Shown one piece after another: positions 3,799 through 62,400 of a stretch of DNA of 64,000 bases; position 1 is the first letter of the stretch; each line of letters begins with the position of its first letter. The stretch is from Aurelia coerulea (Eukaryota > Cnidaria > Scyphozoa > Semaeostomeae > Ulmaridae). The stretch spans positions 3,517,501-3,581,500 of the forward strand of contig CM076959.1 of NCBI GenBank assembly GCA_039566865.1. The letters are read 5' to 3'. Under the pieces are notes generated by a model that worked only from the letters and a program-made list of their open reading frames with translations, had not been told where the DNA came from and ran no database searches. The position numbers and the translations under genes are program-made.

Positions 3799-4458
3799 GT
3801 TTTCATAAGATGAGATAAGCTGAAATGAGATTCATAAAATGAGAAGTATTCATTTTCTTGGAAACAAAGGAGTATCGAGGGGTGTGTGCTCATAAAATTA
3901 AAAGTTTCCCATCGAACCAGACCTAAATTTTCTTGCGTTCAGGTCTTTCAAGATATCACCGTTTTTGATAAAGATTAAAACTTAGCTTTCAGATTGGCAA
4001 ATTAGCTTTTATATTACGATCTTCACCCACAAAGCAAGTAAATGAAGGCTATCCTATCGCATTGAAAGTCTAATACAAACCCAAAACGCCTCAAAACACT
4101 ATCCCAATGTGAGTAATATTTGAGCAAAAAGAATATTTATTTTACGACTCATAGCTTTTAAATCCAGCAAAAGAAAACGAAAAGAAAGGAAACTAGATTG
4201 GATGGTTGTTCTCGTGGATTCCCTTACAAACTTACTTTCTAACTTTTCCTCAAGGATTTCCGTACAATTTCTTGTCAGAAAGATGTCCATTCGGCAGAAA
4301 TGTTGGTGCTAATGCAGTTTTGCACACCCTCTTCAGACCGTGTCTATACTGTTTGTACTTATAACTTTGTCGTTGTATGTCTGTTACATATGTATTGTAT
4401 ATCAATCGATAGCCAAGAACATGGGTATTAATTTGATATGTAATTAATAATTACTCAC

Positions 4459-4528
4459 CTTCAATTCCATCTTTTATTAGCCAAAATACATCCATGACTA
4501 ACCTCCAAATCTTCACTCCGTCCGCCAT
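4459..4528 (-). CDS. possible 23-codon first exon in left foldback arm
   Basis: An ATG in good context (ATAATGG) opens 23 codons (MADGVKIWRLVM...) that end at a consensus GTGAGTAA donor. The inverted copy in the right arm has the same reading frame and donor. It points outward from the element. This may be an exon captured or promoted by the element, or chance. No downstream exon was identified. Confidence 0.3.
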
Positions 4529-4651
4529 TATCAATCAGATCGAGTTCTTCGGTCACGTGACCAGTAGCCTCGACTTCAAACTCAAAGAAGGGGGTCCTCA
4601 TGGGTCGTTTACTGCTCGGAGAACTAAGATCCGGGACTTGGACCCTCGAGC

Positions 4652-5985
4652 TGTCGGTCATCGAGCTGCTGGTGAGAGAGCTAAAAATTTATACTTCGAT
4701 TTTAGACAAGGGAGCTAGACCCTCGAGCTGTCGGTCAGAGAGCTAAAAATTTATACTTCGATTTTAGACCAGGGAGCTAGACCCTCGAGCTGTCCGTCTT
4801 CCAGCTGCCGGTGAGAGAGCTAAAAATTCACGTCTCGATTTTAGACAAGGGAAATAGACCCTCGAGCTGTTGGTCAGAGCTAAAAATTTATACTTCGATT
4901 TTAGACCAGGGAGCTAGACCCTAGAGCTGTCCGTCCTCGAGCTGCCCGGGAAAGAGCTAAAAATTTACGTCTCGATTTTAGACAAGGGAAATAGACCCTC
5001 CAGCTGTCGGTCATCGAGCTGCCGGTGAGAGAGCTAAAAATTTATACTTCGATTTTACACAAGGGAAATAGACCCTTGAGCTGTCCGTCCTCGAGCTGCC
5101 GGTGAGAGAGCTAAAAATGTATACTTCGATTTTAGACCAGGGAGCTAGACCCTAGAGCTGTCCGTCCTCGAGCTGCGGGGGAGAGAGCTAAAAATTTACG
5201 TCTCGATTTTAGACAAGGGAAGTAGACCATCGAGCTGTTGGTCAGAGAGCTAAAAATTTATACTTCGATTTTAGACCAGGGAGCTAGACCCTAGAGCCGT
5301 CCGTCCTCGAGCTGCCGGGGAGAGAGCTAAAAATTTACGTCTCGATTTTAGACAAGGGAAATAGACCCTCGAGCTGTCGGTCATCGAGCTGCCAGTGAGA
5401 GAGCTAAAAATTTATACTTCGATTTTACACAAGGGAAATAGACCCTCGAGCTGTCCGTCCTCGAGCTGCCGGTGAGAGAGCTAAAAATGTATACTTCGAT
5501 TTTAGACCAGGGAGCTAGACCCTTGAGCTGTCCGTCCTCGAGCTGCCGGTGAGAGAGCTAAAAATTTATGTCCCGATTTTAGACAAGGGAGCTAGACCCT
5601 CGAGCTGTTGGTCAGAGAGCTAAAAATTTATACTTCGATTTTAGACCAGGGAGCTAGACCCTCGAGCTGTCGGTCCTCGAGCTGCCGGTGAGAGAGCTAA
5701 AAATTTATGTCTCGATTTTAGACAAGGGAAATAGACCCTCGAGCTGTTGGTCAGAGAGCTAAAAATTTATACTTCGATTTTAGACCAGGGAGCTAGACCC
5801 TCGAGCTGTCGGTCATCGAGCTGCCGGTGAGAGAGCTAAAAATTCATTCTTTGATTTTAGACCAGGGAGCTAGACCCTCGAGCTGTCGGTCCTCGAGCTG
5901 CCCGTGATAGAGAGAAAAATTTACCGCTCGATTTTAGACCAGCGAGTTGGACCTTCGAGCTGGTGGGTACAGAGCTAAAAATTTT
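4652..5985. repeat. left foldback arm: 62/77-bp tandem array
   Basis: About 19 units built on AGCTAGACCCTCGAGCTGTC then AGAGAGCTAAAAATTTATAC then TTCGATTTTAGACCAGGG. Units come in two lengths, 62 bp and 77 bp. The longer one carries a 15-bp extra block (ATCGAGCTGCCGGTG) that is itself a partial duplication of the neighbouring CGAGCTGTCGGTC. Long and short units roughly alternate, which suggests a higher-order dimer. Confidence 0.9.
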
Positions 5986-6346
5986 CTTAGATGTCAAAAA
6001 GAGTCATTAATTTAAGGCTGTTAAATTTTGAGCCTTGAATTCACGACTTTGACGTTTAGAGTAAGAATTTTACTCCCGGAACAGAAGCGGAAGCTTAACC
6101 CATCCGCATTTAGACCGTTGGACAGCTGATGCATTTTTCCAAAAGCTTATATAAAATATGGAAATATACATACATACATACATACATAAGTTATTTGTTT
6201 AAGCAGGTTAAAACTACGGCAGCGCTAGCTGATGTGGACCTGCTATCTAGCTACTTTTACAGTCCATTTAAAATTGTCAGTTCTAAAATTTATGAAAAAC
6301 GGAATGCAATATAAAAAAGGTCTTAAAAAAGAATCACGTAAAAGAG

Positions 6347-9109
6347 TTAATAATAGATAAAATCTTGCTGTTTAAAAGTTATTACAGATGCTTCTTTTTG
6401 AAAACTTGATGTTGTTATGACTTGTTTTGCAGTCTTAATGTTCCTTTTAAAAGTTTCTTGGTTATGATTTGATCTTAGAGTCTCTGGCAACTGATTCCAC
6501 AGATTTGGACCACGAAACCTTGCTGACATCCTTCCTTGTTCCGTTGCTACTCGCGGTAGAACAAATGAATTATTTCGCGCATAACGGCCACAATTTTTGT
6601 CAAAGAGCTGTTTAAAGTCTTCTGGACAATCATCATTACATACTTTGTGCATTATCGTCAGGATTCGTCTTTTGTAGATGTAATCTAGTCTATCCCAATT
6701 CGCATGTGACAACGCTTCCTCATCTGAAATGTTCTTTGGTAATTTGTGAATGAGTTTAGCAGCCCTAGCGTGAATTCTTTCAAGTTGCGATAAAAGTGCT
6801 TGGGAACATGTTCCCCAAACTGCTATTCCATACGTTACTGCAGCAATTACGGTTTTGAAATATATCTCTTCTTGGGTGGCGACTGGGAGGTATGTCATTC
6901 TCCTAAATTGGCTCATTTTTGCTCTGTAAGATTTTGTAACTTTCTTTATTTGTTGATCCCATTTTAGATGATTGTCTATGGTAACTCCCAAAGATGTTAC
7001 GCTGTTTTTGTACTTTATGATATTATCGCCAATCCTTACTGGGCGCAAAGGACCAACGAAATCTTGCCTTGTTATCATCATTACTTCAGATTTATCACTA
7101 TGGATTGTTAGCCGATTTTTCTCGCACCACTGTTTTATCTCTACCCCAATTTCATTCAGTGTATCGACGACCTCTTCAATATTTTGCCCTATATAATAGA
7201 ATGTCGTATCGTCAGCAAATAGATAGACATCACCTTTAGTAATATGATCGGGTAGATCGTTAATATATATGGAAAATAGTCTTGGGCCTAGGAGTGAGCC
7301 TTGCGGCACCCCATAGGAGACATCTCTCATGCATGATCTTGTACCATTCAATTCCACGAATTGCTGCCTGTCATCCAGGTAGCTTTCAAGCATTTTGTAT
7401 GCATATCCTGTAAATCCACATCCTTGTAGTTTTGCTTTCATGATGGTATGGCTGACTGAGTCAAAAGCTTTCCGAAAATCAATAAGCAATACACCAACAA
7501 TGCCCTTTTTAAACCCCCACTGGTAAGGAGTAGTGGCACCATTTAGATCAAGATGCTTGTCTACGGTCTTGCAAATCTGACCCTCCTGTATCTTACTAGG
7601 AATGCTAAGTAGTGACAGTGGCCTATAGTTTTCCCTTTCGACATTTGACCCTTTTTTGAATGCACTTTTTAGCTTTGCAGTCTTCCATGACTGGGGGAAT
7701 TTGCTTTCCTCAAAGCTCTTATCAATCACATACTTTAATCCTCTCAAGATGGAATGGTTTGCAGCCTTGAGTTCTCTTGGGCCTATTTCGTCAGCTCCCA
7801 TGGATTTGTGTGGATTTAGGGCTGAAATTTGATGTGCCAAATAAATTGAATCACTGTCAAAAAGTTCACAAGTAGGTGTTACTCGAGTGATATGTGTCAT
7901 ACAGTTTTCGTCGTCTTCGCTTGGAAAGCTGGATGCTAGTTTTCGTCCAACATCAGCAAAATAATTGTTCAATAGCTCAGCCTTTTCAGAGTCGTTTGTG
8001 ACAAGCTCCCCCGCATCATTCTTTAATGCTTGGATATTACTAGACTTAGACTTGCCTTTCATTTTGTTTACTGTCTGCCAAAACTCTCTGGAGCTATTTG
8101 ATTTGTTAAATTGCCCCTTCCAATACTCAGCTTCAGCTTTTCTGAGCATGATGTTAACATTATTTCTTAAAGATTTATATTTGTCCCTCAACTTTTCATC
8201 TGTTCTGTTTTTTTGCCATTTTGTTAGTGCTTTGAATCTCAGATTCATTGCTTTCTTTATTTCTCTGTTCACCCAAGGCAGGTTATTTGGTCGAATTTTT
8301 GCGAGTCTATGGGTAATAAACTCATTCAGTACATCCTTGTACATGGTCTCCCAACAGTATACTGCATCATCTATTTCTTCAAAGGTACTTATGACCCACC
8401 AAGGGACATGGTCTAACATTTCTCTAAACTTTTCTTCATTGAATCTTTTCCTGTCTTTAATGTACTTAAGCTGAGGTTTGTTATGAATCTTCTGTATGTT
8501 CAATATGCAGTAAATTAATTTATGGTCTGAAATTGCTGGTTCGAATGTTCCAGATCTGATGATTTTATTTGAGTTCTTTATTTTATCACTTACTACTATG
8601 AGGTCAATTAATGTCTTGGATGATTCTGAGATACGAGTTGGTTTATTTATCAGGTTGTGAAAGTCAAATGCCTTTAGAACTCGCTTCATATTTTTACCTG
8701 CATGTGAATTTTCTTTGGAGCTGTCCTTGCTTAGTAAATCAGAATTAAAGTCACCTAATATTATAATGTTCTTTCGCTTGGTCCACAGGTGGTTGAGTAT
8801 GTTTGAAAAATGCTCGTAGAATGCCGTATCTGTTGGTGGTCTGTACATGCAGCCAATCAAGAATTTTTGTGACTGTAGGCATAACTCAATCCACACTGAT
8901 TCGGTTTGTTTGTTGTCATTTACCCCTTTGACTGGGGTAACAGTTAGGCAGCTTCTGTAGTAAAGCAAGGAGCCTCCTCCACTTTTGCCTTCTCTGTCGA
9001 ATCTTTCTATTTCGTAACCATCAATAGAGATCTCATTATCAGATACTTTCCAGTTTAAGTGTGTCTCGGTGATTGCAAGTATATCTAGTTGGCAGTACTG
9101 CATGAGCAT
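6347..9109 (-). mobile_element. CR1/L2-like LINE ORF2: endonuclease + reverse transcriptase
   Basis: One uninterrupted 920-codon frame. The N-terminal third is an apurinic-type endonuclease missing its first residues (AITETHL, GDFNSDLLS, SDHKLIY). The rest is a LINE reverse transcriptase (ENYRPLSLLSIPSK, DFRKAFDSVSH, GVPQGSLLGPRLF, catalytic FADD at about 635) and a C-terminal tail (RFRGPNLWNQLP). Between FKKG and IVGVLLIDFRKAF roughly 20-25 residues expected for the family are absent without a frame change, so an in-frame deletion is likely and activity doubtful. The first ATG is well inside the endonuclease, so the element is 5'-truncated or starts with a lost exon. It lies inside the foldback element between its arms. 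Confidence 0.9.
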
Positions 9110-9336
9110 TATCTATCGAAAGGAATTTATCTATCGAAAGGAATCGCTATCAGAATGAAACTAAAGCATTGATATAATACAATAATAGTCAACACTCTTT
9201 TCATTGTGATTTTTAGAGATTTGATGTTGTTTTTGTTAAAAAACATACCCGAATGAACAGGTAAAATTTTGCATGGGTGGAAGGACCCAAATTCCTGAAG
9301 TCCCTCAAATGCCTCAAGCTACATTGCATGGACATA

Positions 9337-9735
9337 CAGTAGAAACCCGCATAAAAGAACCTAGGTTTTTTCTGGGCAGCCTGAATTGGTTCTTAATTAA
9401 ATGGCTGCTATTCTAAATTCCAGCCTGTATGGTTCTTAAAAAGGTTCTTATATACGAGCAGGCCTTGCACACATTAACACTGTTTTCCAGCCCAAGAATT
9501 CTTGAGATTTCTTGAGAATTCTTGAGAACAAATCTTTTGTACCAATGAAGAAGTCTGATCAGGATGTGAAGAATTCTAAAAATTCTTGTCATTTTAATAA
9601 TTTACATTTAAGCTATTATATAAGAACTTTTCCCAGTTTCAGCCTCTTAGGGGTTCTTATTTAGGGAGTTTTAAAGATTGAATTTCAGCCTCTAGGTTCT
9701 TATAAAAACAGGTTCTTTTATGCGGGTTTCTACTG
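9337..9735. mobile_element. 399-bp MITE (CAGTAGAAACCCGCATAAAA family), TA duplication
   Basis: The ends are CAGTAGAAACCCGCATAAAA and its inverse, with TA on both sides (9335-9336, 9736-9737). Internal sequence contains repeats of AAGAACCT/AGGTTCTT and TTCTTGAGAATTC. Two further copies lie at 61995 (inverted, similar length) and 26361 (diverged). TA duplication suggests Tc1/mariner-type mobilisation. Confidence 0.88.
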
Positions 9736-9794
9736 TATGAAGAATCTCAAGCTTGGGGCAGGATTGTTAATTGGCTATTTTTTGTCAATTCAAA

Positions 9795-11035
9795 GGGGCT
9801 ATTTCCCTTGTCTAAAATTGAGACGTAAATTTTTAGCTCTCTGACCAACAGCTCGAGGGTCTAGCTCCCTTGTCTAAAATCGAAACGTAAATTTTTAGCT
9901 CTCTCGCCGGCAGCTCGAGGACGGACGGCTCTAGGGTCTAGCTCCCTGGTCTAAAATCGAAGTATACATTTTTAGCTCTCTCACCGGCAGCTCGAGGACG
10001 GACAGCTCGAGGGTCTATTTCCCTTGTGTAAAATCGAAGTATCAATTTTTAGCTCTCTCACTGGCAGCTCGATGACTGACAGCTCGAGGGTCTATTTCCC
10101 TTGTCTAAAATCGAAACGTAAATTTTTAGCTCTCTCCCCGGCAGCTCGAGGACGGACGGCTCTAGGGTCTAGCTCCCTGGTCTAAAATCGAAGTATAAAT
10201 TTTTAGCTCTCTGACCAACAGCTCGAGGGTCTAGCTCCCTTGTCTAAAATCGAAGTATACATTTTTAGCTCTCTCACCGGCAGCTCGAGGACGGACAGCT
10301 CAAGGGTCTAGCTCCCTGGTCTAAAATCGAAGTATAAATTTTTAGCTCTCTGACCAACAGCTCGAGGGTCTAGCTCCCTTGTCTAAAATCGAAGTATACA
10401 TTTTTAGCTCTCTCACCGGCAGCTCGAGGACGGACAGCTCGAGGGTCTAGCTCCCTGGTCTAAAATCGAAGTATACATTTTTAGCTCTCTCACCGGCAGC
10501 TCGAGGACGGGCAGCTCAAGGGTCTATTTCCCTTGTGTAAAATCGAAGTATAAATTTTTAGCTCTCTGACCAACAGCTCGAGGGTCTAGCTCCCTTGTCT
10601 AAAATCGAAACGGAAATTTTTAGCTCTCTCGCCGGCAGTTCGAGGACGGACAGCTCTAGGGTCTAGCTCCCTGGTCTAAAATCGAAGTATACATTTTTAG
10701 CTCTCTCACCGGCAGCTCGAGGACGGACAGCTCGAGGGTCTATTTCCCTTGTGTAAAATCGAAGTATAAATTTTTAGCTCTCTCACTGGCAGCTCGATGA
10801 CCGACAGCTCGAGGCTCTATTTCCCTTGTCTAAAATCGAGACGTAAATTTTTAGCTCTCTCCCCGGTAGCTCGAGGACGGACGGCTCTAGGGTCTAGCTC
10901 CCTGGTCTAAAATCGAAGTATAAATTTTTAGCTCTCTGACCAACAGCTCGATGGTCTATTTCCCTTGTCTAAAATCGAAGTATACATTTTTAGCTCTCTC
11001 ACCGGCAGCTCGAGGACGGACAGCTCGAGGGTCTA
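9795..11035. repeat. right foldback arm, inner part of the inverted array
   Basis: The same 62/77-bp units as the left arm, in reverse orientation (TTTTTAGCTCTCTCACCGGC and related). The array stops abruptly within a unit at GGGTCTA (11029-11035), exactly where a composite insertion begins, and resumes at 16804. Confidence 0.9.
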
Positions 11036-11309
11036 CAATCGCAGACAAAACTCTTGTAACAGTACTCTTTTTTTGTGTAAATTTAGCATTGTGTGTTTTA
11101 ATTCCCCCCGCCCCCCTAATCAATGTTGATTTGCACTTTGGGTGGTTTTGGACTTGATTACGAGACAACATGTGACCATTACCACCCAACATTGAACCGG
11201 GGGGAGGGGGTTTGTAGCAAAAGTTGGCCTTTTCTAAGAGAGGCAGACAGGCCTGCTAATTTTTTTTGCAAAAATCAACAACTGTTACAAGGAGTTTTGT
11301 CTGCGATTG
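11036..11309. repeat. left 274-bp end unit with inverted ends
   Basis: Begins CAATCGCAGACAAAACTC and ends GAGTTTTGTCTGCGATTG, so each unit is itself MITE-like. It contains a C-rich run and a G-rich run about 90 bp apart. It is nearly identical to the unit at 16530-16803 and in the same orientation. It is preceded by TA and followed by TCTGAG. Confidence 0.88.
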
Positions 11310-11515
11310 TCTGAGCACCATTTTTGGAGAAAATGCGCATATTAGCCTATTACAATGCATTGTCCAAGGGACCTGGTCCCAAGAACCAATTTTATGATGT
11401 TTCTTGCGCAAATTGATTCATGATGACGTCAAATGAGGCTTTTGTTTGATGAAAATTTGACAAAAATGCCTGAGTTGTGTAGTTGGTTGGTTGTGTTGCT
11501 CATTAGCAGTTGAAA

Positions 11516-12593
11516 ATGGTGTATCGCAGTCCTATTTCGTCGGAGACTCGAGCTTTTATCAAGTTTAAGAGAAATACTTCTGCTACTGAGCTTCACAGAG
11601 AAACGGGGGTATCACTAGTTCAAATATATCGTATCTGGAAAGAGAACTCAAAGGCAAACATCAGATCGAAATCCAGGCAGGGAATTGGAGGACGGCCTAA
11701 GAAACTAACGGCGAAGGATGAAAGGCTGCTTCTAAGGCAGGTTCCTAAACTTCAAAAAGAGTTTCCTAACTGGACGGCAAGGCGGTTGATGGTAGAATGC
11801 AAAATCGAAAGTGTCAGCGTGAGAACCATAACGCGTCTATTGAACAGGAATGGCTACAAATATAGGCAAGCACGAAAAAAGGGACTAATATCGAAGTCGG
11901 ATCAACAGAAGAGGGTTAAATTTTCTAAGAAAATGATAAACGAGTATCCAGAAGATGTCTGGACGAAACATATAGCATTTTATTTCGATGGTGTCAGTTT
12001 TGTGTACAAGAGACATCCTAAAGATCAGGCACTGGCACCTAGGGGGGAGGGTTTGGAGAAGGGCAAACAAAGGACTTTTGCAAGGCTGTACAGCGAAGGG
12101 AAAGAAATGTGGCACTGGCGGCAAGCAAGTGAAGCTTTTTGTTGCTATATCGCACAACGAGGGAGTGATTTCTGCAGAGACGTACGAGCACTTCAATGGG
12201 GAAAGCTTTGCACAATTCGTGATTGATAAATTTGATACCATTTTTGACTCTGCACGGAAAAATACTCGAATGTGGATCCAAGATTGTGACCCATCTCAAA
12301 ACTCAAAGTTAGCAAAGGATGCCATGTTTGCTGTGAATGCAGACTTATTGCAAATACCACCACGTAGTCCGGACATCAACCCTATTGAAAACATTTTTCA
12401 TCTGGTTAAAAGACAACTAGACAATCAAGCAATTAAGGACAACATCATAACGGAGAGCAAGGTCGACTTTGAAACAAGAATAAAGCACACTCTGTTTGAA
12501 TTACCAGTATCCCATATCAACAACATAATTGAATCAATGGGAAGTAGAATGAAGAAAATCATCACGGAAAAAGGCAACAGACTAAAATATTAA
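11516..12593 (+). pseudogene. Tc1-like DD34E transposase, one frameshift
   Basis: The first frame, from the ATG at 11516, encodes a helix-turn-helix region (SLVQIYRIWKEN), a basic GRPKK linker and the first catalytic Asp (FYFDGVSFVYK). A second frame takes over and runs to the TAA at 12591-12593 with GTGGKQVKLFVAISH, the second Asp in WIQDCDPSQNSK and the Glu in SPDINPIENIF. Counting from that Asp to that Glu gives 34 intervening residues, the DD34E spacing of Tc1 elements. The frames overlap, and the likeliest break is a one-base length change in the run of six Gs at 12042-12047. Apart from it the gene looks intact, so the copy is young or the base is a sequencing error. It lies 200 bp inside the left end unit, a normal position for an autonomous element. 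Confidence 0.85.
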
Positions 12594-12910
12594 TGAACTA
12601 ATAAACTGCAGTGAATGGTTATTCCCACATAATATAAATGTTCCTTTTTGTTCATAAGTATGCAATTAATGCAATGTATTTGATTCTATCAATTATTTGT
12701 GTCGAAAACCAATTAATTACTCTTATCTAGCTGGTGATACTATTGCCGATTGCGCCAAGTATGCAGTCTCTCTGATAAGTAGAAGTATGTCAGTCTCTGT
12801 TTTTCTTGAATTTTGCGACAAGGTCACATTATTGAAATTCAGCAACCAAGAATTATCACCTGCTGAGAAAAATCAACTCCGGCAGCCCTAATCAAGAACA
12901 AATTAAAAGT

Positions 12911-13155
12911 GCGGTTAACCAAACGGTTAACCTCTTCTTCGAACAAAAACGGGCCATTTCACTGAATGATGTAGCGAATAACCACGGTTAACCACGGTTA
13001 ACCAGAGATTTTATAAAAAAATTGTAACAATATTTTTTTAACTAAGATTGGTTAATCGTGGTTAACCGTGGTTATTCGTCTTAAAGCAAGCAAAATCCTT
13101 TATTTTTAACCCAATCGCTACTTAACCAATTGGTTATCCGTATTGTTAACCGAAA
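12911..13155. promoter_or_regulatory. GGTTAACC iteron and hairpin cluster, candidate replication origin
   Basis: GGTTAACC palindromes occur at 12913, 12925, 12986, 12996 and 13060, with near copies at 13050, 13070 and 13130. Two 30-base arms (12975-13004 and 13049-13078) are inverted repeats with 29 of 30 positions matching around a 44-base AT-rich loop. The cluster lies about 100 bp past the stop of the helicase ORF. Iterated binding sites plus a stem-loop beside a Rep gene is the arrangement of rolling-circle or hairpin origins; the function here is inferred. Confidence 0.5.
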
Positions 13156-13249
13156 TAAGTGTTCAAATACTATATCTACTGGATGAAAATTCAACGAAAT
13201 AGTTCGAATCAAGTTCGTTCAATCAGTCAAAATCGGAAAATTATCAAAG

Positions 13250-14383
13250 TTACTCTAAATCAGCGCCTAGCATCACAAGCTCTGCAAAGCATCGTCCACA
13301 GGGAGGGATCTCTTTCTGTTCACCTTGTGGGATTTGATGTCGAAGCTCGAAGACCTTCCAACGTGAGTCCATCATGTCGTCTTCCATCCTGTTTGAGGCT
13401 GAGGTACAACGGCCTGTATAAATTATCGGAGCAATGCTTGTCGCAAAAACCGGCGTGTCCTTCTCCAACACAATGTCACGTGCAAATTGTGACTTAGGTG
13501 CAGCAAATCGAACTATCTGCACCTCTAGCAGCAAAAGTAAATCTTTCCAGGCAATTATTTCAGAAGACCAGCGAAAATCATTCAGAAATATGATCTCACT
13601 GTCCTGCACCCCTATCCAAGCAAAGGTGGTCGTTGCTGGATTCGCAAATGTCTTAAAGATAGTAGTGAGTGGCTGCAACAGAAATGTTTTACCGCAGTTC
13701 GCAGGCCCTACTATCATGAGGTTACGCCATTTGCCCCTTCCTTTCATCAACAGTTCTCTAAGTGCATAGGAAAACACATGGACATTGATGTGATTCTGTT
13801 TGATCACTTGCCTTGCACTCTCAATCCACTGCTTAGAACATCTCGGCACACAATCTCCATCAAGTGCAGCTTTTATGAGCTCCATTCTGGACGATTTTTC
13901 CCGCTCAAGAGTTGAAAGAGACTCTTCTAACTTCCAAGCGTTTACAATCATTGACTCCCGCTGTGCGTCTTTCTTGCCTAAAATCGCTTCCGTAAAATCC
14001 TCCCGTCCTTCGTCACTTTGTCCTTTCGCAAGAGCCCATAGTTCGTTGTCGGTATGAATTTTATTGGCAACAATCATCTTTTGCATTTCAAGATTTGATA
14101 ACCTCCTCCGTTTTGGCTTTGGCTTTGAACTGTCGGTGGCAGAAGATGTGCTGGCTGATGCAAAGTCTGTCGAAGATTCACGACGCTGACGCTTTGCTTC
14201 TTGGCTTGCCGTCATTCGTGCTTTTGATGGCAGTTTAGTTCTGGGAGATCGTGAATCTGCTAATGGTGGGTGCCCCTCAGAATGGAATGATGCTGCTTTA
14301 TCGAACTTCGTCGCGTAATCATAAGCGGAGTAATAGTTCTCATGTCTGCTTGAAAAATGTACAGAAATGCCGTATTCGTCCAT
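13250..14383 (-). pseudogene. superfamily 3 helicase part of an HUH replicase
   Basis: A 377-codon frame. Near its start is a tyrosine-rich stretch with YxxK spacing (YDYATKFDK) like motif III of rolling-circle initiators. Next comes a basic Ser-rich segment (KPKPKRRR), possibly a nuclear localisation signal. The helicase follows: Walker A GPANCGKT (about residue 231), Walker B IIFLNDFRW, a B'-like stretch, motif C PVFATS, then a C-terminal RWKVFELRHQIPQ region with CxxC. The P-loop and the order of motifs resemble parvovirus NS1 and CRESS-virus Rep helicases. The N-terminal nuclease half is encoded at 15848-16126, separated by a 1.5 kb insertion. The frames on the two sides are compatible, so the gene is simply split. 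Whether it is of viral or transposon origin is not decided by sequence alone. Confidence 0.75.
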
Positions 14384-14387
14384 TAAA

Positions 14388-15858
14388 GCTACACTCCCAT
14401 GAATAGACCCAACGCTGCTGGGGCTTAGCTGCCCTTCAGATATATTTCAACCTTATCGTGAATATTTCCTCATAAGCATCGGACAAACACAAGGTTGCAT
14501 TTTCTCATCATTAGGGCAAGTTGGGCTTAGAGGGAACTAGCCCATCTCCCGAAAAACAAATAACCCTCCCGAAGGTAGGGTTGGAAGGAAAACCTTCACT
14601 TTTTCCCGCAAAACTAGTCCCCTCGTCCATGTTGGACAAAACTTCCAGATGCATCTGCAAAAGAAAGAAGATCCAACATGAAAAATGTGATTGAGGCGGG
14701 TGGGTGGGAGACTTAATTTGCAACCACTCCGCACGAGTGTGCAAAATTTACTAACTTCTCAAATCAAACTCTGTTTTATACTGCAAGAAGAAACCATGCC
14801 ACATGTTCGACTATCATTGAGCACGTAGATAATAAAACACATGACATCTCTAGAGAGTCAAAATCTATGGTATTGCAAATCGCCAGAGGCGTAATAAACA
14901 ATAAAAAGCATGTTCGTTGCTTTAACTCCGATTAGAATTTCATTCTAATCTGCATTTAAAGCTACACTCCCATGAATAGACCCAACGCTGCTGGGGCTTA
15001 GCTGCCCTTCAGATATATTTCAACCTTATTGTGAATATTTCCTCATAAGCATCGGACAAACACAAGGTTGCATTTTCTCATCATTAGGGCAAGTTGGGCT
15101 TAGAGGGAACTAGCCCATCTCCCGAAAAACAAATAACCCTCCCGAAGGTAGGGTTGGAAGGAAAACCTTCACTTTTCCCGCCACAGAACACGAAGCGAGG
15201 AAATGAAGTGAAAAGAAGCGCAGTGTTCCCCCCAACCCACACCAAGAGGAGAGAAAGAACGCAAGACCCGAATACGAAACAGGGTCGAAGCGAGATTAAG
15301 ATGAGAAAATGCAACCCCGGTAAGCGATAGCTAGGATGATACTTTGAAATACCTGCATTGCCAACCAGAGGCGAAAGAGCACATCTTATAAATGAAAACG
15401 AAGTTTCTTACCAAATCTGAGGCTCCATGCCTCGTGCTAATCCAAAGTAGAATCGCATTACTGCCACAAACTGGCCTGCAAAATGGCCTGCCAACTTAGC
15501 TGAAAAGGAAAACATATGGCTCGAAGGCCACACACACATAACACACATACACACAAGCAAGCCCGAAGGCCATTTTCAACACGCACTGCTCGACTCGCTG
15601 TCGAGACTTTTAGACTTAATTTGCAACCACTCCGCACGAGTGTGCAAAATTTACTAACTTCTCAAATCAAACTCTGTTTTATACTGCAAGAAGAAACCAT
15701 GCCACATGTTCGACTATCATTGAGCACGTAGATAATAAAACACATGACATCTCTAGAGAGTCAAAATCTATGGTATTGCAAATCGCCAGAGGCGTAATAA
15801 ACAATAAAAAGCATGTTCGTTGCTTTAACTCTGATTAGAATTTCATTCTAATCTGCAT
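14388..15858. mobile_element. tandem pair of non-autonomous elements splitting the replicase
   Basis: Two direct copies (14388-14955, 568 bp; 14961-15858, 898 bp) share about 220 bp at one end (AGCTACACTCCCATGAATAG...) and about 250 bp at the other, but have different middles of about 105 and 440 bp. TTAAA stands at the left junction (14383-14387), between the copies (14956-14960) and at the right junction (15859-15863). A short palindrome GATTAGAATTTCATTCTAATC-like hairpin sits 11 bp from one end. A 3' hairpin, tandem arrangement and variable cargo recall Helitron/Helentron derivatives, but the family is not proven. Confidence 0.65.
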
Positions 15859-16126
15859 TTAAACGAGCCTTAGATCTATTCCACCGTTTGTTGCCACTGA
15901 GTTTGAGAGCAAGGTGATAGTGCTTTCCACCATCAGCATGATCTTCGCGGCTGCAGGCCCAGTGCAATGGTTTCACCTTTCCTTTTGATTCAAAAGTGCG
16001 AACAACTACCTTTGCAAATGACTCTCTCGTGGGGAACCTTTTGAGATCTGCTTGGCTGTATGTTACCATGTACGTGGATCGAACAGTTCTAGGATCCAAT
16101 TCGTTTTCAATAAAATTTGCCGCCAT
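15848..16126 (-). pseudogene. HUH endonuclease domain, 5' part of the split replicase
   Basis: A 92-codon frame starting at an ATG in good context (AAGATGG). It shows a motif I-like YMVTYSQAD and the metal-binding HUH motif in GGKHYHLALKL, at the expected distance. Its stop lies inside the inserted element; beyond the insert the frame continues at 14383. HUH nucleases nick one DNA strand at an origin and start rolling-circle or rolling-hairpin replication. It is 400 bp inside the right 274-bp end unit. Confidence 0.7.
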
Positions 16127-16529
16127 CTTACTTTTACTCGGCAGTTCAACTCGAAATAAATTTGGCCTCTGATAAACAATTGCCCTTTTATCGCAGATTT
16201 AGTTCATTCATTGGTTGTATTTGCCTTTGGGTGAAATTTTCACAAGCATCCGGTGATGGCAAATTGGTGGCACAATGGATATAAAAACATTTTTACCTTC
16301 ATGAGTGTAAGAGACGAGGGCTTTCATCAGATATATCCGCTAGCACACACACTATAGCTATTTTGAACCTCAAAAGGAAATGAGTACATCCTCTGATGGA
16401 AGCAATACAATGCCTTTTCGATAGTAATATGCTAGTACAATATATTTAAACTAAATGAGTGAACTTTGTGATACGATATTTGCCGTAGTAAGCAGTAAGA
16501 CTCGATTTACCAGAAAGTCTACATTCAGA

Positions 16530-16803
16530 CAATCGCAGACAAAACTCTTGTAACAGTACTCTTTTTTTGTGTAAATTTAGCACTGTGTGTTTTAATTCCC
16601 CCCGCCCCCCTAATCAATGTTGATTTGCACTTTGGTGGTTTTGGACTTAATTACGAGACAACATGTGACCATTACCACCCAACATTGAACCGGGGGGGAG
16701 GGGGATTGTAGCAAAAGTTGGCCTTTTCTAAGAGAGGCAGACAGGCCTGCTAATTTTTTTTGCAAAAATCAACGACTGTTACAAGGAGTTTTGTCTGCGA
16801 TTG
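16530..16803. repeat. right 274-bp end unit with inverted ends
   Basis: Direct copy of 11036-11309 with a handful of substitutions and single-base length changes. It is followed by the TA duplication, and preceded by TTCAGA, which is the inverse of the TCTGA that follows the left unit. Confidence 0.88.
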
Positions 16804-17320
16804 TAGCTCCCTGGTCTAAAATCGAAGTATACATTTTAAACTCTCTCACCGGCAGCTCGAGGACGGACAGCTCAAGGGTCTATTTCCCTTGTGTAAAATC
16901 GAAGTATAAAATTTTTAGCTCTCTCACTGGCAGCTCGATGACCGACAGCTCGAGGGTCTATTTCCCTTGTCTAAAATTGAGACGTAAATTTTTAGCTCTC
17001 TCCCCGGCAGCTTGAGGACGGACAGCTCTAGGGTCTAGCTCCCTGGTCTAAAATCGAAGTATAAATTTTTAGCTCTGACCAACAGCTCGAGGGTCTATTT
17101 CCCTTGTCTAAAATCGAGACGTGAATTTTTAGCTCTCTCACCGGCAGCTGGAGGACGGACAGCTTGAGGGTCTAGCTCCCTGGTCTAAAATCGAAGGATA
17201 AATTTTTAGCTCTCTGACCGACAGCTCGAGGGTCTAGCTCCCTTGTCTAAAATCGAAGTATAAATTTTTAGCTCTCTCACCAGCAGCTCGATGACCGACA
17301 GCTCGAGGGTCCAAGTCCCG
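16804..17320. repeat. right foldback arm, outer part of the inverted array
   Basis: The array resumes here with TAGCTCCCTGG, the second half of the unit that was cut at 11035. It continues to the unique arm sequence shared with 4304-4650. One unit carries the rarer spelling TTTTAAACTCTCTC in place of TTTTTAGCTCTCTC. Confidence 0.88.
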
Positions 17321-17423
17321 GCTCTTATTTCTCCGAGCAGTAAACGACCCATGAGGACCCCCTTCTTTGAGTTTGAAGTCGAGGCTACTGGTCACGTGAC
17401 CGAAGAACTCGATCGGATTGATA

Positions 17424-17493
17424 ATGGCGGACGGAGTGAAGATTTGGAGGTTAGTCATGGATGTTTTTTGGCTAATAAAAGATGGAATTGAAG
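17424..17493 (+). CDS. possible 23-codon first exon in right foldback arm
   Basis: Mirror copy of the minus-strand candidate exon at 4459-4528. The single base difference between the two copies inside this frame (GTT versus GTA) is synonymous, and the GTGAGT donor is kept. Transcription would run out of the element towards 17.65 kb and beyond. Confidence 0.3.
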
Positions 17494-17669
17494 GTGAGTA
17501 ATTATTAATTACATATCAAATTAATCCCCATGTTCTTGGCTATCGATTGATATACAATACATATGTAACAGACATACAACGACAAAGTTATAAGTACAAA
17601 CAGTATAGACACGGTCTGAAGAGGGTGTGCGAAACTGCATTAGCACCAAATGTTGACCCCCGGAAAAGC

Positions 17670-29352: not shown

Positions 29353-32300
29353 CAGGGCCTCCGACGACGGAAGGGGGGCGGGGGGGGGGGGGCATGCCCC
29401 CCCCCTTTTTTGCAAATTATGCCTTTCAGAAATTTGTTATAAAAGATCTTAATCATCTTTAAAATCCCAAGTTCATTTAGTTGAGCAGTAAAGTGTTCTT
29501 GCATTCCCTTGATTAAACCCCTGTTCTGTTCATAGGTGACATTTTCTTTTGAAACTAACTACATATCTTATAACCTTATGCACAGTAATAGTAGGTTTTC
29601 AGTTACGTCAAGAGCTAAACAACGTAATGTCTTCTAATAGGTATTCTATTCATCACCTCTCTGGCCCCGATGCAACACGTTGTTTTCAATGAAATTTGAG
29701 ATTGAATAACAAAAACTAAAGAATTACGTCATGAGGATTTTGCAATGCAAAGGTTTCAGTCAAATGAATCAGTCCATCCTCGAATCAGTGTCATTTGAAT
29801 TGAATCAGTGGTGAACGTTTGATGAGAAGAATGGTGCTGTTAAGGTGAGAACGTTTTTTTAACATCTCAATTTCAAGCAAGGGACATGGTACCCCCCCCC
29901 CCCCCCCCACTCAATAAAACTAATATGGTAAGGGTATTAGCTGCCCTTTACAATTACTGGCCTAGGGTTTTTGGTCCTAAATTCTTATCGCAAGAAATTG
30001 TATAGCTGTCAAGAAATCTGCAAATTTTGTTTGATCAATTTTCTTAATTAGAATCGATTTTGCAAAGTCTTTTGCAAATACTTAAAAAATTTGCAATTTG
30101 CCCGAGATCTAACATTCTAGACAATGATAATGGACATCTACAACATGTTGAAGAATTAAAATGCACTTGTTCAGGATGTCAAAATCAAAACAAATCACAG
30201 AATTCTTTGCACGATCGTGTGAAAGCGCCTCAAGCTCGTCAGCTAACAACGAAAGCAATAACGAAGATATCGCAGAGTCAGCAAGTCAAAATCAACTACA
30301 TCATCCCTTCACATTTTCCTCGCCATTGAATTTGAACCAAGGCGGCCCTACAATAGTAATAAGAGACAAGCCATTTCACCCGGGGAAAGGTTTTAAGTTC
30401 CCGAAAACAAAATTTGGTTCCAGAGAGAGGTCATGTCAATGTTCATGGTTCGAGTCCTATAAATGGTTACATTACAATCAAGAAAATGACTCAGTCATGT
30501 GTTTCATTTGTGCCACAGAAGAGAAGAAAGGCAATTTGAGGAGTGAAAGGATGAAGGAATTTGCCTACATATCTTGAGGGTTCCGTTCTTGAAAGAAAGC
30601 TCCAAAATGTTTTGAGCACCAAGCTTCATCATGCCACAAAACTGCTCTCTCTTTTCATGTGCTTGTCCCTCAATGTGGAGATGTTGTGGAAATGGTTAAC
30701 GATCACCTGGTCAAATCAAGATTAGAAGAACGTCGTTACTTCTACAAAGTCATGGAGTGTGTGCAGTTTCTTGGTAGACAAGGTATGGCGTTTCAAGGAA
30801 ACGAGCTGGAGCAAAATGATAATTTTACCCAGTTAATGCTGTTGAGAGGCAAAGATGACCCAATCATTGTTGAAAGGTTGCTAGGGAGCAGGGGAGACAA
30901 GACGAAATATACCCATGCTGGTTTTTCAAAACAAGCTGCTATCAATCATGGCCAATCAAGTTGTTCCAAAAAAGCTAGAGTCAATCAGAGAAAACGGGTT
31001 CTTTGCAATAATGTGTGACGAATACACAGACATTTCCAACAAAGAACAGTTATCATTTTGTGTCCATTCTGTGGACTCAGTCCTAAATATCAAGGAAGAT
31101 TTCCTGGGATTTTACGAAATTGATAACATTGAAAGCAGCACTATTGTGGCAACAATTAAAGATGCATTTCTTAGGATGCAGCTCTCCTTTTCCGACTGTA
31201 GAGGACAAACGTATGACGGGGCCAGAAACATGCTGGGTAGAAAGTCCGGAGTTGCAACCCAAATTTCTGCTGTTCAGCCCAAAGCCTTAGTCACCCACTG
31301 CCATGGCCATTCATTGAGTTTGGCTGTGAAGGATCTAACCTCAGCATGCAAGATATTAGATGATACCATGGGCACTGTTGGAGAGATATGTGTACTTGTC
31401 AAGTTTTCACCAAAACGAGAGAAAATGCTTGGCGCTATTCAAGAAAATGTAGAAGGAGAGGTGGCCGACGACAGTGCGTGCATCTTGCTTCTTAAAGATC
31501 CTAAACAACTACGATGAGCTTCTAACTCTGTGGCAAGAGTGCCTTCGCCAAAAGCTGACAACCGATATCAAGGCAAGCATTATTGGATGCGATGCACAGA
31601 TGCAAAGGTTCTCGTTTTATTTTGGGCTCTCAATTGGGCACAGGCTATATTCTTTAACCGACAACCTTTCAAGAACGCTGCAGAAAGAGAAGATGTCCGC
31701 TGTTTCTGGCCAGCGCCTTGTGAACTTGACCGTAAAGACACTGGAAGGAATGCGTAGTGACGAAAATTTCAAAATGTTTTTTGACACAGTTGTGAAAAAG
31801 GCCCAGAAACATCCCTCACTTGGAGCGCCAAGCTTGCCAAGGAAAAGGAATCGGCCAGACTACTCTATCTTGCAGTACATGGAAGGATATGGTCAAGGAG
31901 CTGCAGCCAATCATCCCCAAACAGTTGATGACCATTACCGGCAGATCTATTATGAAGCAATTGATATGGTTGTTGCTTCAATAAAAGAACGTTTCAATCA
32001 ACCCAGTTACAAAACCTTTGCAGCTCTGGAAACGATGCTCCTAAACATGTTTGACGATAAGCCATTTAAAGATGAATTGCAACATCTACAGACCATATAT
32101 AGTGACAATGTTTCCATAGAATCCCTGCAAGTCGAATCTGGCATCTTCAAGCAGCTCTTCGCAAATGATCCAGCTCGTTGTTTTGATGATATCCATGAAA
32201 GATTAAAGAATGCAAATGAAGAGAACTATCTTATTCCAACCGTCATCACAACCTGCAAATTACTTCTGGTCAACCCAGCAACCAGTGCAACACCAGAAAG

Positions 32301-33018
32301 ATCATTTTCATTGGCTCAAAGAGTGAAGACATGGTTGTGTGCCACCATGACCCAGACGAGATTTAATGCCCTGGCAATGATAAATTATCACAAATAAGTC
32401 ACAGATGCATTGGACCTATTCAAAGTTGGCAACCAATTCGTTTCGTTGCACCAAAAGCGCTACCAGAAATTTGGCAATTTTCAGGCATCAGGCATATCAA
32501 GAAACTGTAGATGTTAAAATACAGTAGAGTCAGTCCAGGCTGAAAAGTTCTCAGTCCAACTGGGAACATGTGCCATAAACCTTATGACCGAATAAATGTG
32601 ATCAACGTTTCAGGCGTATAACACAATGCCCAGTCCGGCTCAGAAATTTTCAGCCACCCCACGCATATTCTAATGATTGAACTGAAACTTGGTTTATGCT
32701 TTTATTTTGAACTTAGCTTTTGGCCGTTAACAGATAAAGTTAACAGAATCTGTTTTCGTTAGGAGCATAGCGTTTAGTTGTGGATGTGCTAAACTATGTC
32801 AGGCTTTGTCACAAGTGCTTCACATTTCATGAGTTAAACGTTAAATTGAAAATATCATCTGCATGTGCTAAAAATCGTTTTTAATTGCATAAGAGTAAAC
32901 GCAGACCGATTTTCATGATACCAAGATTTTTACAAAGGCAGCTCATCATACTGTGGTAATTTTTTTGTGTCAAGTTTGGCCCCCCCCCCCCACTTTTCTG
33001 ATCTCGTCGGAGGCCCTG
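29353..33018 (+). mobile_element. 3.67 kb hAT element with 5-bp target duplication
   Basis: Terminal inverted repeats CAGGGCCTCCGACGA / TCGTCGGAGGCCCTG lie at 29353 and 33018. The 5-bp repeat TCAAC flanks both (29348-29352, 33019-33023). Poly-G/poly-C tracts sit about 20 bp inside each end. The single gene inside is a frameshifted hAT transposase. A 159-bp deletion derivative of the same element lies at 45544-45702 with its own 5-bp duplication. Confidence 0.85.
30161..32397 (+). pseudogene. hAT transposase, TTF zinc finger and DUF4371 type, frameshifted
   Basis: Domains in order: a TTF-type finger (SCQCSWFESYKWLHYNQEN, VMCFICA), then GFRSWKKA...EHQASSCHKTA in another frame, the DUF4371/RNase H-like region (IRENGFFAIMCDEYTDISN, CRGQTYDGARNM, THCHGHSLSLAVKD) and the C-terminal hAT dimerisation domain (LVNPATSATPERSFSLAQR). 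Frame changes near 30580, 30950 and 31480 break the gene, so it is not active as it stands. Proteins of this layout resemble ZMYM1/zinc-finger MYM-related hAT derivatives. Its position in the middle of the TIR-bounded unit makes it the element's own transposase. Confidence 0.88.
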
Positions 33019-59400: not shown

Positions 59401-62400
59401 AGGCACTTATTCAAATTGAAATTTGAAAGCTAAAAATTGACGAACATAACAATTCTGAAGGGAAAATTCACAAAGGAACATATTTCTTCAATCATAGTGC
59501 ACCTGAAAAAGCATTTTTAAGGATCTTATCCATGGATAATTTTCCCTTGGGTATATTTGATTTCTTGTTTCGTAATAATTCGAAGAAAGATTATACAAAA
59601 TGCATTTCATTAAAGATAGGTGTACTATGCATGTTTCCCGTCTAAGAGTTCTCTGCATAGAAGTTTTTAAGACTTTAAACAATTTAAATCCCTCTTTCAT
59701 GCACGATATTTTCAAAATAAAATCTTCCAAGTACTCATTACGTAACTCCAATGACTTACAGCATTATAGACCAAATCAAGTCACCTTTGGGTCCAACAGC
59801 CTTCGATCATTGGGACCTCAGATCTGGAATACACTGCCAAATGAAATGAAATCAGCCGAAAACCTAAATAGTTTTAAAAATATGATAAAGAAGTGGGAAA
59901 GCCCAGACTGAAAATGTAGTGCCTGTCAATATGTATCAATGAACTAGTTTTCTTTAGTTTTCTATATTTAGTTAGATTATCAAAATACTGTAAAAATATT
60001 TATTTATGTAATTATATATATCCATCGATTTAGATTAGTTTACTTTGTATATTTGTATATAGTAAGCTAGAGTATGTACATAATCGATGTAAAATAATTT
60101 GACAAACAAATGAAGATTGCAGGAATTAATTAATTTTTCACACCAAAACAACCTACTTTGCGGATTTCTTCCTTTTATGAGACGGATGCAATGCTAACTT
60201 TTCGAAACTTTCCAAGCATAGAAAAAAGATGCCTTTTCAGGACAAAGTTGATGAATTTGATTGAATTTCTATTCAAATATTTTCATCGAAATGATGCTTA
60301 TTCTCCTACTTCACGGTAATTCAGGAGATTCCCCAAAATAGCGCGTTTGCAGTTTAGGCTAAAAGCCACAAGCTCTGGTTTGGAGGTTCAGGCAAATTTG
60401 GACTTTCAAAATTAATATTCCAACTTTCAATGTACCAATATCATCAATCAAGGTATCTATCTTCAAGTTAGCTATCGAGGATTATATAGAAAATTACTAT
60501 GGATTGATTGGACCTAAATTCTTGTCGCTAGTCTCGATCAAATCCGTTGCGCTTTTTTTGGGACACCCGGTATGTATATCAGTTTTCATCAGCTTTCATT
60601 TTATCAGTTTTCAGCTCATTCGAACATGATGCAAGATATATGATACAAGCGCATATTTAGTGCGCAAAAATTAACTCCATTCGTTTGACAACAATTCACA
60701 TGGGCATTTTTCAACAAAATGCTCATACTCTCAGGCAGCTTCGATCCATAGCTTCTTGGGTCCCTTTTTTTTCTCGACAGTATTGAAATTATATTGAATT
60801 ATTCCCCAATCAGGGAATAATTCCATAATTTAAGATGGGATAACATATGCAGGGCTGGAACAGAGGAGCTCAATTGCTGTTAGTCGAAGAATTTGGTACG
60901 AAAATATAGATATTGTTTGGCTGCTTAATGGAGAAACAATGCACTGAACTTGCACTGGTTCTTCAAAGTGAAATTCCATGCTTTACCAAGTCGTTTATGA
61001 GAACATGCCAATGAAATTATGGAAATGTGATAATGATTGCTTTTCTACTGTATATTTACTGAAGGGACAAGCCATATATGGGATGGAGAAGCTCGTTTTT
61101 CAAACATTTTGTGCAACAGTTTTTCTATTTATATGATTGATGAAAAGAGGTGATTGTTTGATTAAGCTGGCTTAGAATTTATTGCAGAGTCCAGACAAAT
61201 GTCAAACCTTCCTCCTGTGGGCAAATTTTTTGTAAACCCTTCCTCATTTTATGAGTAAAAAATAATAAGATTTTACGTACTTATGGCGTTGTTTATAACC
61301 CTAAAATGTGTAAACCTGTTGCTCGCACCAAATTAACCTAAAATCAACCCCAAATTATCCCTTCACTTTGTTTCTCTTGTCTTGTTAGCGTGATGGATAC
61401 AAAATATGTGGGGAGTGTAATGGCAGCGTTGGTTTGAGAGCTAAGCAATGTACTCACTGCAACTCTTCATTTCCCAGCAAAGTAAAAGACTGGGAAAGTA
61501 TTCAGAAACATGCGTCCACAATGAAGGACAGTTATATCAAAGACAAGCTATTCGACCGGGTAAGTGGGCAATCGTCTATTGTTGAACGTCTTCCCGTGGT
61601 ACAAAACTTGAAAATTACGTTGAGTGATGGAAAAATTTTGATTCAACAGATTCATTGAATAGTTGATTAGATTCAATAATTCTTTACTTAGGCTTTGATA
61701 TCTTGGATCGCTATTTGAAAGTCTTTAAAAAAGTATTAGATGGACATGGTCAGGTCAATGGTCTTCCTCCTAAATCATGAGGTACACTAGGAGGTACATC
61801 ATGAGGTACTCTGACCGTCTGTGATTTTACGAAAACCAAGCGCAAATGTTCATGATGGGATAACAGATTCCTAAGCACACCCTTTGTTGTATGCAACAGT
61901 CTTTTTCCAACCCATCTCATAACCTTAATCATCAGTCTCTTAGATTTTTTTGCCTTCTTCTAGGCATCGATTTCCCCCCATTAGACGTCCAATACAGTAG
62001 AAACCCGCATAAAAGAACCTGTTTTTATAAGAACCTAGAGGCTGAAATTCAATCTTTAAAACCCCCTAACCATAACCCTAAGAGGCTGAAACTGGGAAAG
62101 GTTCTTATATAATAGCTTTAATGTAAATTATTAAAATGACAAGAATTTTTAGAATTTTTCACATCCTGATCAGACTTCTTCATTGGTACAAAAGATTTGT
62201 TCTCAAGAATTCTCAAGAATTCTCAAGAAATCTCAAGAATTCTTGAGCTGTAAAACAGTGTTAATGTGTGCAAGGCCTGCTCGTATATAAGAACCTTTCT
62301 AAGAACCATACAGGCTGGAATTTAGAATAGCAGCCATTTAATTAAGAACCAATTCAGGCTGCCCAGAAAAAACCTAGGTTCTTTTATGCGGGTTTCTACT

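Follow-up and report, generated by a model that had tools for sequence, protein, structure and literature searches.

Cut-and-paste transposons are generally held to multiply by way of host replication and repair. A hairpin with iterons is a feature of the circular Rep-encoding single-stranded (CRESS) DNA viruses, and among eukaryotic transposons the Replitrons and Helitrons are not known to have a DDE transposase, the Helitrons carrying a superfamily 1 (SF1) helicase. KolobokP elements, which are 4.0-4.7 kb long in oyster, have a Kolobok transposase, TTAA duplications and a His-Me nuclease (Kojima and Bao 2022, PMC9587614). RepE1 cressviruses and integrations of them are described from sea anemones (PMC11071296), and Teratorn is a 180-kb fusion of a piggyBac transposon and a herpesvirus (PMC10175614). 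Here we analyze a stretch of 64,000 nucleotides from the scyphozoan Aurelia coerulea, called the window (C17:3517501-3581500 of the 574-Mb host assembly, in which copies are named by C-number and position), and within it a block at 11036-16803. We consider it probable that this block represents a group of animal transposons that combine a Tc1/mariner-type DD34E transposase, a Rep replicase with HUH nuclease and superfamily 3 (SF3) helicase, and a hairpin/iteron origin, and that would replicate as circles by means of Rep and integrate at TA as monomers or concatemers.

As far as the available part of its description goes, KolobokP shares with the block an arrangement LTDR-INT-LTDR of long terminal direct repeats (LTDRs), short terminal inverted repeats (TIRs) belonging to each LTDR, solo LTDRs, multimers and LTDR excision (PMC9587614). 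The block differs in its Tc1-type transposase, TA target, HUH-SF3 Rep and origin hairpin, no Rep being mentioned for KolobokP in that part of the paper (PMC9587614); the block itself has neither a Kolobok transposase nor a TTAA duplication, and the list of open reading frames (ORFs) holds no third one above 118 aa besides transposase and Rep. Its DDE_3 and HTH_Tnp_Tc3_2 transposase, DD34E signature, TA duplication and inverted ends are those of Tc1/mariner, but the paired-end direct repeats, the second gene for a replicase with its origin, and the tandem runs distinguish it from a simple TIR-bounded element with a transposase only. Unlike Helitrons, which are without TIRs or target site duplications, it has both, together with an SF3 fold (in the model of its relative P0001). 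The presence of HUH nuclease and SF3 helicase in one Rep is shared with CRESS-DNA or RepE1 cressviruses and with parvoviruses (PMC11071296), from which the block departs in having no capsid-size gene, chromosomal TA insertions and a convergent transposase gene; the window Rep is only a candidate member of the RepE1 group. Teratorn is alike in concept, a cut-and-paste transposase fused with a virus, and unlike in its 180 kb, its piggyBac origin and its herpesvirus (PMC10175614). Finally, an HUH-type nuclease is also found in Replitrons and Helitrons, but Replitrons are described, in the accessible text, with direct terminal repeats of 5-11 bp and no TIRs (PMC10741241), in contrast to the 274-bp direct repeats with TIRs seen here.

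The insertion and its two genes

Direct reading and computation agree that block 11036-16803 is one TA-flanked insertion into a host array of 62/77-bp satellite units, with the following features.

11034..11035, no strand: TA target duplication, left
11036..11309, forward: left LTDR, 274 bp, with its own 28/29-bp inverted ends
11310..11314, forward: inner flank TCTGA of the left LTDR, mirroring the right inner flank
11516..12593, forward: Tc1-type DD34E transposase gene with one frameshift
12900..13180, forward: putative origin, iterated CGGTTAACC and long hairpin (12975-13078)
13250..14383, reverse: C-terminal part of Rep, third HUH-nuclease motif (Y..A..Y..K) and SF3 helicase
14384..15863, no strand: later insertion within rep, two tandem related units with TTAA joints
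15860..16126, reverse: N-terminal part of Rep, HUH nuclease motifs I and II (HYH)
16525..16529, forward: inner flank TCAGA of the right LTDR
16530..16803, forward: right LTDR, 274 bp, 97.8% identical to the left LTDR
16804..16805, no strand: TA target duplication, right

An earlier note on this DNA had claimed a single mobile block from the TA duplication and the split of one tandem unit; the TA on both flanks and the empty site, that is, the joined outer flanks (31 bp), found uninterrupted five times in the satellite arrays of the window, bear this out. The similarity of the two LTDRs was computed over a 277-column alignment. Each LTDR is bounded by its own inverted ends, which begin CAATCGCAGACAAAACTC and have the full form CAATCGCAGACAAAACT(C)CTTGTAACAGT, and the 18-mer of these ends occurs four times in the window where 0.05 occurrences are expected by chance (<=3 mismatches). 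The inner flanks form a 5-bp mirror, TCTGA/TCAGA, and not TA. Thus the 274-bp ends of the note are present at both sides, but they are not simple Tc1 ends, being direct repeats each with inverted ends. The note had further allowed that transposase and replicase might have entered separately; an ungapped scan for inverted and direct repeats within the block, which would be blind to short target duplications alone, gave no marks of such entries above shuffled levels. At Rfam gathering scores the window has no match.

Two Pfam domains score above cut-off in the transposase, DDE_3 (E 3.1e-13) and HTH_Tnp_Tc3_2 (E 1.9e-9), and the protein aligns as DD34E (spacing counted by eye), in keeping with the earlier note. 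It is broken in the window by a frameshift near 12045-12064, where tblastn gave two pieces in different frames. Every full-length transposase row of family A, to which the window copy belongs, was reported with a TAG, which in the window lies just upstream of the ATG.

The replicase gene lies on the opposite strand, and its two pieces, 15860-16126 and 13253-14386, are 100% and 99% identical to P0001, a relative of 466 aa. Against Pfam the window pieces gave matches below cut-off only, and the HUH-SF3 assignment therefore rests on motifs and fold. A 21-sequence alignment shows little or no variation in the HUH histidines (H-Y-H) and in the Y..A..Y..K motif. An AlphaFold2 model of P0001 (mean pLDDT 82.7) has Rep68 of adeno-associated virus (AAV) as its best PDB match (E 1.5e-12), with papillomavirus E1 also matched, and papillomavirus E1 and parvovirus NS1 were matched in a viral structure library, so that the HUH nuclease and SF3 helicase called from the sequence are upheld. 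A search with the helicase piece gave 645 relatives at E<=0.001, and among the 120 listed the sole organism-named one is from the coral Porites evermanni. PHROGs gave no match to P0001, and no relative was confirmed in genome_contigs.

There is, as the earlier note had it, one Rep, although in the window it is split. The 1480 bp between its pieces (14384-15863) consist of two tandem related units, one of 573 and the other of about 905 bp, whose joints carry TTAA and whose shared ends are 99-99.6% alike. Because the gap measures about 4 bp in the remaining mapped copies of family A, this is a later, separate insertion of 1476 bp with a TTAA duplication, absent from those copies; an intron was considered in its place and rejected on the same observation. 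It is owing to this insertion that the window copy measures 5.77 kb rather than about 4.3 kb. By eye, the insertion has a short hairpin near one end, and no inverted ends were seen in it.

The putative origin lies between the convergent genes. Its hairpin at 12975-13078 has 30-nt arms and iterated GGTTAACC, five of whose six occurrences in the window fall within 12600-13250. Folded as 12960-13095, the hairpin has z = -9.87, and none of 200 shuffles was as good, in support of the iterated hairpin locus first noticed. The exact CRESS nonanucleotide NANTATTAC was not found in the window hairpin.

Recurrence of the unit in the host genome

The left end of the block has at least 64 matches in the host assembly (40 of 50 candidates scored), as single units, solo repeats and head-to-tail arrays, and P0001 has at least 113 Rep matches (91 of 750 candidates scored), which after the merging of 22 second pieces represent 91 Rep places. 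At 82 of the 91 places a transposase lies within 3.5 kb, on the expected side and on the opposite strand, and at none on the same strand; random placement, in a model that ignores clustering, predicts 0.05. The count of 82 takes in the matches of two queries, P0121 (112 matches in the host assembly) and a piece of the family E transposase (150 matches, 37 at 100% identity), P0121 alone (110 of its 112 rows) giving 56 of 91. Most of the added family E rows that had stops, were weak or were already counted were left out; C6:19512088, with one stop, was kept, and 81 places remain without that row.

Copies with the same ends and the same order of transposase, hairpin, helicase and HUH, for which the earlier note had proposed to look, thus exist at unrelated loci with TA outer ends, two arrays without TA ends being the exceptions, and this recurrence means that the unit is not a chance capture. 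An assembly join between 11.3 and 16.5 kb is unlikely because family A has about 30 occurrences of the unit, spread over six sites. At least five Rep-bearing families (A-E) follow one plan, the Rep of B-E being 43-54% identical to that of A, and the 91 places also include some outside these families.

Family B Rep: 54%; C4, C12, C19, C22
Family C Rep: 50-51%; C9:15.69M
Family D Rep: 47-48%; C1, C11, C13, C8
Family E Rep: 43-49% in two pieces; 17 rows of equal score

The unit is a two-gene mobile element whose form at TA sites is LTDR-interior-LTDR or, at some loci, (LTDR-interior)n-LTDR; its plan is LTDR, transposase, origin and, on the opposite strand, Rep. Feature mapping of family A gave the order LTDR-transposase-origin-Rep-tail with a period of about 4.0 kb. 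There are 12 family A interiors on C10, 10 on C5 and 4 at C9:11.08M, and single units at C9:3.68M and, twice, on C11; partial and more diverged copies at C9 2.73M, 2.81M and 9.93M gave no Rep match in the stretches fetched. The LTDR spacing of the window less the later insertion (5494 - 1476 = 4018) agrees with the family A period of about 4016 and with most spacings of the other family A arrays (4014-4024), the exceptions being sites with inserted DNA or a missing LTDR. One Rep copy of the C10 array carries a 261-bp insertion (C10:15769764-15770024) that has no 15-mer in common with either the LTDR or the TTAA units. A direct reading of the family E arrangement gave the C-terminus of the transposase followed by a 466-aa Rep on the opposite strand, and CAATCNNNGMCAAAA is common to the inverted ends of families A-E.

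Outer ends are TA/TA in family A at the window, the C9:11.08M and C10 arrays, the C9:3.68M single and the two C11 copies, which are probably one duplicated insertion because their flanks are identical. The same holds for the family B array on C12 and for all five single family E insertions with both ends read, whose flanks are unrelated, and the right ends of the C2 array (family E) and the C1 array (family D) are also at TA. Solo LTDRs are flanked by TA on both sides at four sites (C18, C4, C14, C1); a fifth (C13) shows its right end only, and this is at TA. Since all left ends flanked by TA have a C before it, and all right ends but C11:12.54M and C11:18.35M have a G after it (by eye), the preferred target looks like CTAG. 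The family A copy at C9:3683700-3687980 occupies the same TA of the satellite unit as the window copy although the similarity of the satellites on their flanks is no more than about 84%; this points to a preferred target and not to a duplicated occupied site. The inner flanks are TCAGA/TCTGA in family A (all copies read, apart from a later base in the C11 copies), TTCAGA/TCTGAA in D and F and TTCAGA/TCCGAG in E.

In all six families examined, the stretch that separates the convergent 3' ends of the two genes holds an iterated 9-mer, which differs between families. Repeat counts are set beside the largest count in 200 shuffles; hairpin scores were compared with 8 shuffles each, which gave 6-10 for families A, B, C and G.

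Family A: CGGTTAACC, 5 copies (shuffles 6), hairpin score 27
Family B: CGGTTAACC, 11 copies (shuffles 4), hairpin score 45
Family C: CGAGTTACC, 8 copies (shuffles 3), hairpin score 48
Family G (C6:15.14M): GGGTAACCA (CGGGTAACC), 10 copies (shuffles 4), hairpin score 45
Family D: CATTTTACC (ATTTTACCG), 5 copies (shuffles 3-4), hairpin score 15 (shuffles 7-13)
Family E: CGATTGACA, 4 copies (shuffles 3), hairpin score 8 (shuffles 7-8)

Matches from other assemblies offer what we take as supporting evidence only. Eight contig sizes are common to the Rep and transposase lists where 2.1 are expected (P 0.001-0.003); for contigs of at least 3 kb, a cut chosen post hoc, seven are shared and about one is expected, and a coincidence at 2691 bp, too short for both genes, is probably due to chance. 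Among the peaks of both lists is one near 3.8-4.0 kb, which corresponds to a single unit.

The satellite array that received the window copy is itself part of a 13.3-kb fold-back element (4303-17649), the Tc1-Rep unit lying within its right arm. The left end of that element (4303-5147) is an inverted match, 98%, to 16804-17649, its arms are partly 62/77-bp satellite, and it has a possible 5-bp AATGT duplication (by eye). Within it, 6347-9109 holds a 920-aa ORF with endonuclease and reverse transcriptase domains of the long interspersed nuclear element (LINE) type. Elsewhere in the window are a 416-bp inverted repeat pair (9335-9738 and 61992-62403, 94% identical, 52 kb apart) and, at 30152-32397, broken frames that resemble a hAT-type transposase, an impression from reading.

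Arrays, proposed circles and alternative explanations

Tandem runs, end repeats that are mobile units of their own, the KolobokP precedent for paired ends and Rep-less derivatives all go beyond the earlier note. Head-to-tail runs of at least two copies number 14 for Rep and 30 for the transposase; they hold 63 of the 91 Rep places and have periods mostly of 3.8-4.5 kb. Among 27 family A transposase copies of at least 97% length, mean divergence within an array is 0.06% (C10), 0.10% (C5) and 0.12% (C9), as against 0.22-0.38% between these arrays, 0.26-0.79% to the C11 and C9 single copies and 1.1-1.5% to the window copy. For RepHel the values are 0.31, 0.85 and 0.50% within C10, C5 and C9, and 1.08-1.45% between the three.

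Some inner LTDRs are missing from arrays, with small footprints left behind. In the C10 array, interior joints without an LTDR alternate with normal joints, and the four of five that were read are all identical, so that amplification came after LTDR loss. In the family E array at C2:21372964-21395543 the three inner joints read are all without an LTDR and retain TTCAGA-C-TCCGAG, TTCAGA-G-TCCGAG and a variant; these one-base footprints are not the same from unit to unit, as though each LTDR had departed separately. The family F unit on C14 (3.23 kb) has a transposase ORF only and shares 98% identity with family D along stretches of 803 and 347 bp; judged by its sequence, family F is a Rep-less derivative of family D that still forms arrays. 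Transposase-unit arrays of about 3.2 kb period are found at C14:248160-293805, C3:9970757-10015224 and C22:2608642-2693915 (11, 14 and 23 copies seen), the C14 unit having been read and the others grouped with it by period and match score.

Taken overall, multiplication through a circle seems to us fairly probable, and with somewhat more reserve we lean toward a transposon of two phases, in which Rep would amplify a circle of about 4 kb at the iteron/hairpin origin and the transposase would integrate whole concatemers at TA by means of terminally redundant paired ends, Rep-less satellites being served in trans. The circle would consist of one LTDR and one interior, with the inverted ends of the LTDR extended by TCAGA/TCTGA. 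Nicking of the origin hairpin by Rep would start rolling-circle replication and yield multimers; the transposase would then cut a terminally redundant stretch at its outermost CAATC ends and paste it at TA, such that a concatemer enters as one insertion. The transposase might also excise single LTDRs, and recombination between LTDRs could free circles anew. Copies that lack Rep or have a broken transposase would subsequently be mobilized and amplified in trans, which we propose because all 12 C10 transposases have a TGA (counted per unit, not as a shared position) while ten of the 12 C10 Rep rows have no stop.

A number of observations weigh against this model. Neither circle, nick nor concatemer was observed in our assembly-based analysis, and the Rep-less arrays of the family D derivative mean that Rep is not needed in cis. 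The iteron count of family A, alone among the six, falls within the range of its shuffles, and the hairpin, strong in A, B, C and G, is weak in D and not strong in E. The C5 array of family A has no clean TA ends (its left flank is CA in a minisatellite and its right end is truncated), the family C array at C9:15.69M is flanked by gagatc/cagctc in place of TA, the family D array on C1 is truncated at its left end, and the stretches fetched for a two-unit family E run at C1:43.08M did not reveal its outer ends. Inner flanks of family B (GTCAGAAGA/TAGGTC) and family C (TTAGAGA/TCTCTA) are unlike those of A. LTDR divergence within C5 (1.84%) and C9 (1.64%), and tail divergence within C9 (1.12%), are no less than between many loci. 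Across nine, then eight, size-matched contig pairs from other assemblies, Rep and transposase identities, which are near saturation, were uncorrelated (Mantel r -0.06 and 0.00), which lends no support to co-inheritance of the two genes.

The main rival accepts the same composite element but has the arrays expand within the chromosome through unequal crossing over of LTDRs, as proposed for KolobokP, with Rep a passenger or in another role such as replication restart. For KolobokP, in the part of its account available, LTDR-INT-LTDR forms, solo LTDRs and multimers are indeed described in the absence of a Rep (PMC9587614), the host assembly contains a Rep-less array unit, and the C5 array shows LTDR variants four units apart along with its high LTDR divergence. 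Against this explanation, Rep is open in many divergent copies, internal stops being absent from 18 of 21 full-length family A Rep rows and from all 32 rows of families B, C and D (a count that excludes ten further partial family A rows, most with stops), and it adjoins origin-like iterons that differ between families; we regard this explanation as rather doubtful. The circle would also be needed if one bearing an LTDR had recombined with a solo LTDR already resident at TA, the TA then marking the older solo insertion. Recombination of this kind would yield the same anatomy and is one of the routes proposed for KolobokP, in the same part of that paper (PMC9587614), but direct transposition explains more simply the five of five family E singles with both ends and unrelated flanks, and we hold recombination to be improbable. 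These explanations overlap, and the weights we give to them do not sum to one.

Two further explanations concern the origin of the unit. An endogenized CRESS or RepE1 virus might have captured a Tc1 transposase, or carried one for integration, and have left the copies as proviral fossils; the helicase is of the parvovirus or papillomavirus kind of SF3, and a sea anemone has RepE1-bearing cressvirus contigs with apparently high-copy integrations, according to the portion of that study available (PMC11071296). The absence of any other long ORF from the block, the many loci with frames often open, and searches of viral_contigs that confirmed no relative by Rep, transposase or Rep alignment and gave none for the end 18-mer all speak against a provirus, which we likewise judge to be quite unlikely. 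Scarcely credible, and refuted by recurrence, is a chance composite of two 274-bp elements resembling miniature inverted-repeat transposable elements (MITEs) on either side of a transposase and a Rep relic: the four solo LTDRs with TA on both sides would fit such a composite, but the order is kept in the family A units and in divergent families, and the inner flanks of family A are not TA and are alike in the copies read.

Novelty and biological meaning

The pieces of the unit are each known separately, and its paired-end layout is known from KolobokP; the new part is the union of Tc1 and Rep, of which we found no description. The earlier note likewise knew of no Tc1/mariner element with an HUH-SF3 replicase, and none appears in the literature searched, as judged by titles and the openings of abstracts; since Repbase and most subscription journals were outside the scope of this search, a prior description is possible. 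The CMITE tandem arrays of corals were considered as a possible precedent and set aside, for they are described, in the part of the source available, as piggyBac-related and are different from the Tc1-Rep units (PMC2872659).

If our model of Rep-driven circles is true, the unit is a cut-and-paste transposon of animals that replicates itself episomally and is a direct source of satellite-like tandem arrays. Equipped with a replicase and an origin of its own, such an element would break the rule of host-dependent multiplication, would link the replicons of single-stranded DNA viruses to one of the most common groups of DNA transposons in eukaryotes, and would explain how long tandem arrays of a transposon come to stand at a single TA site.

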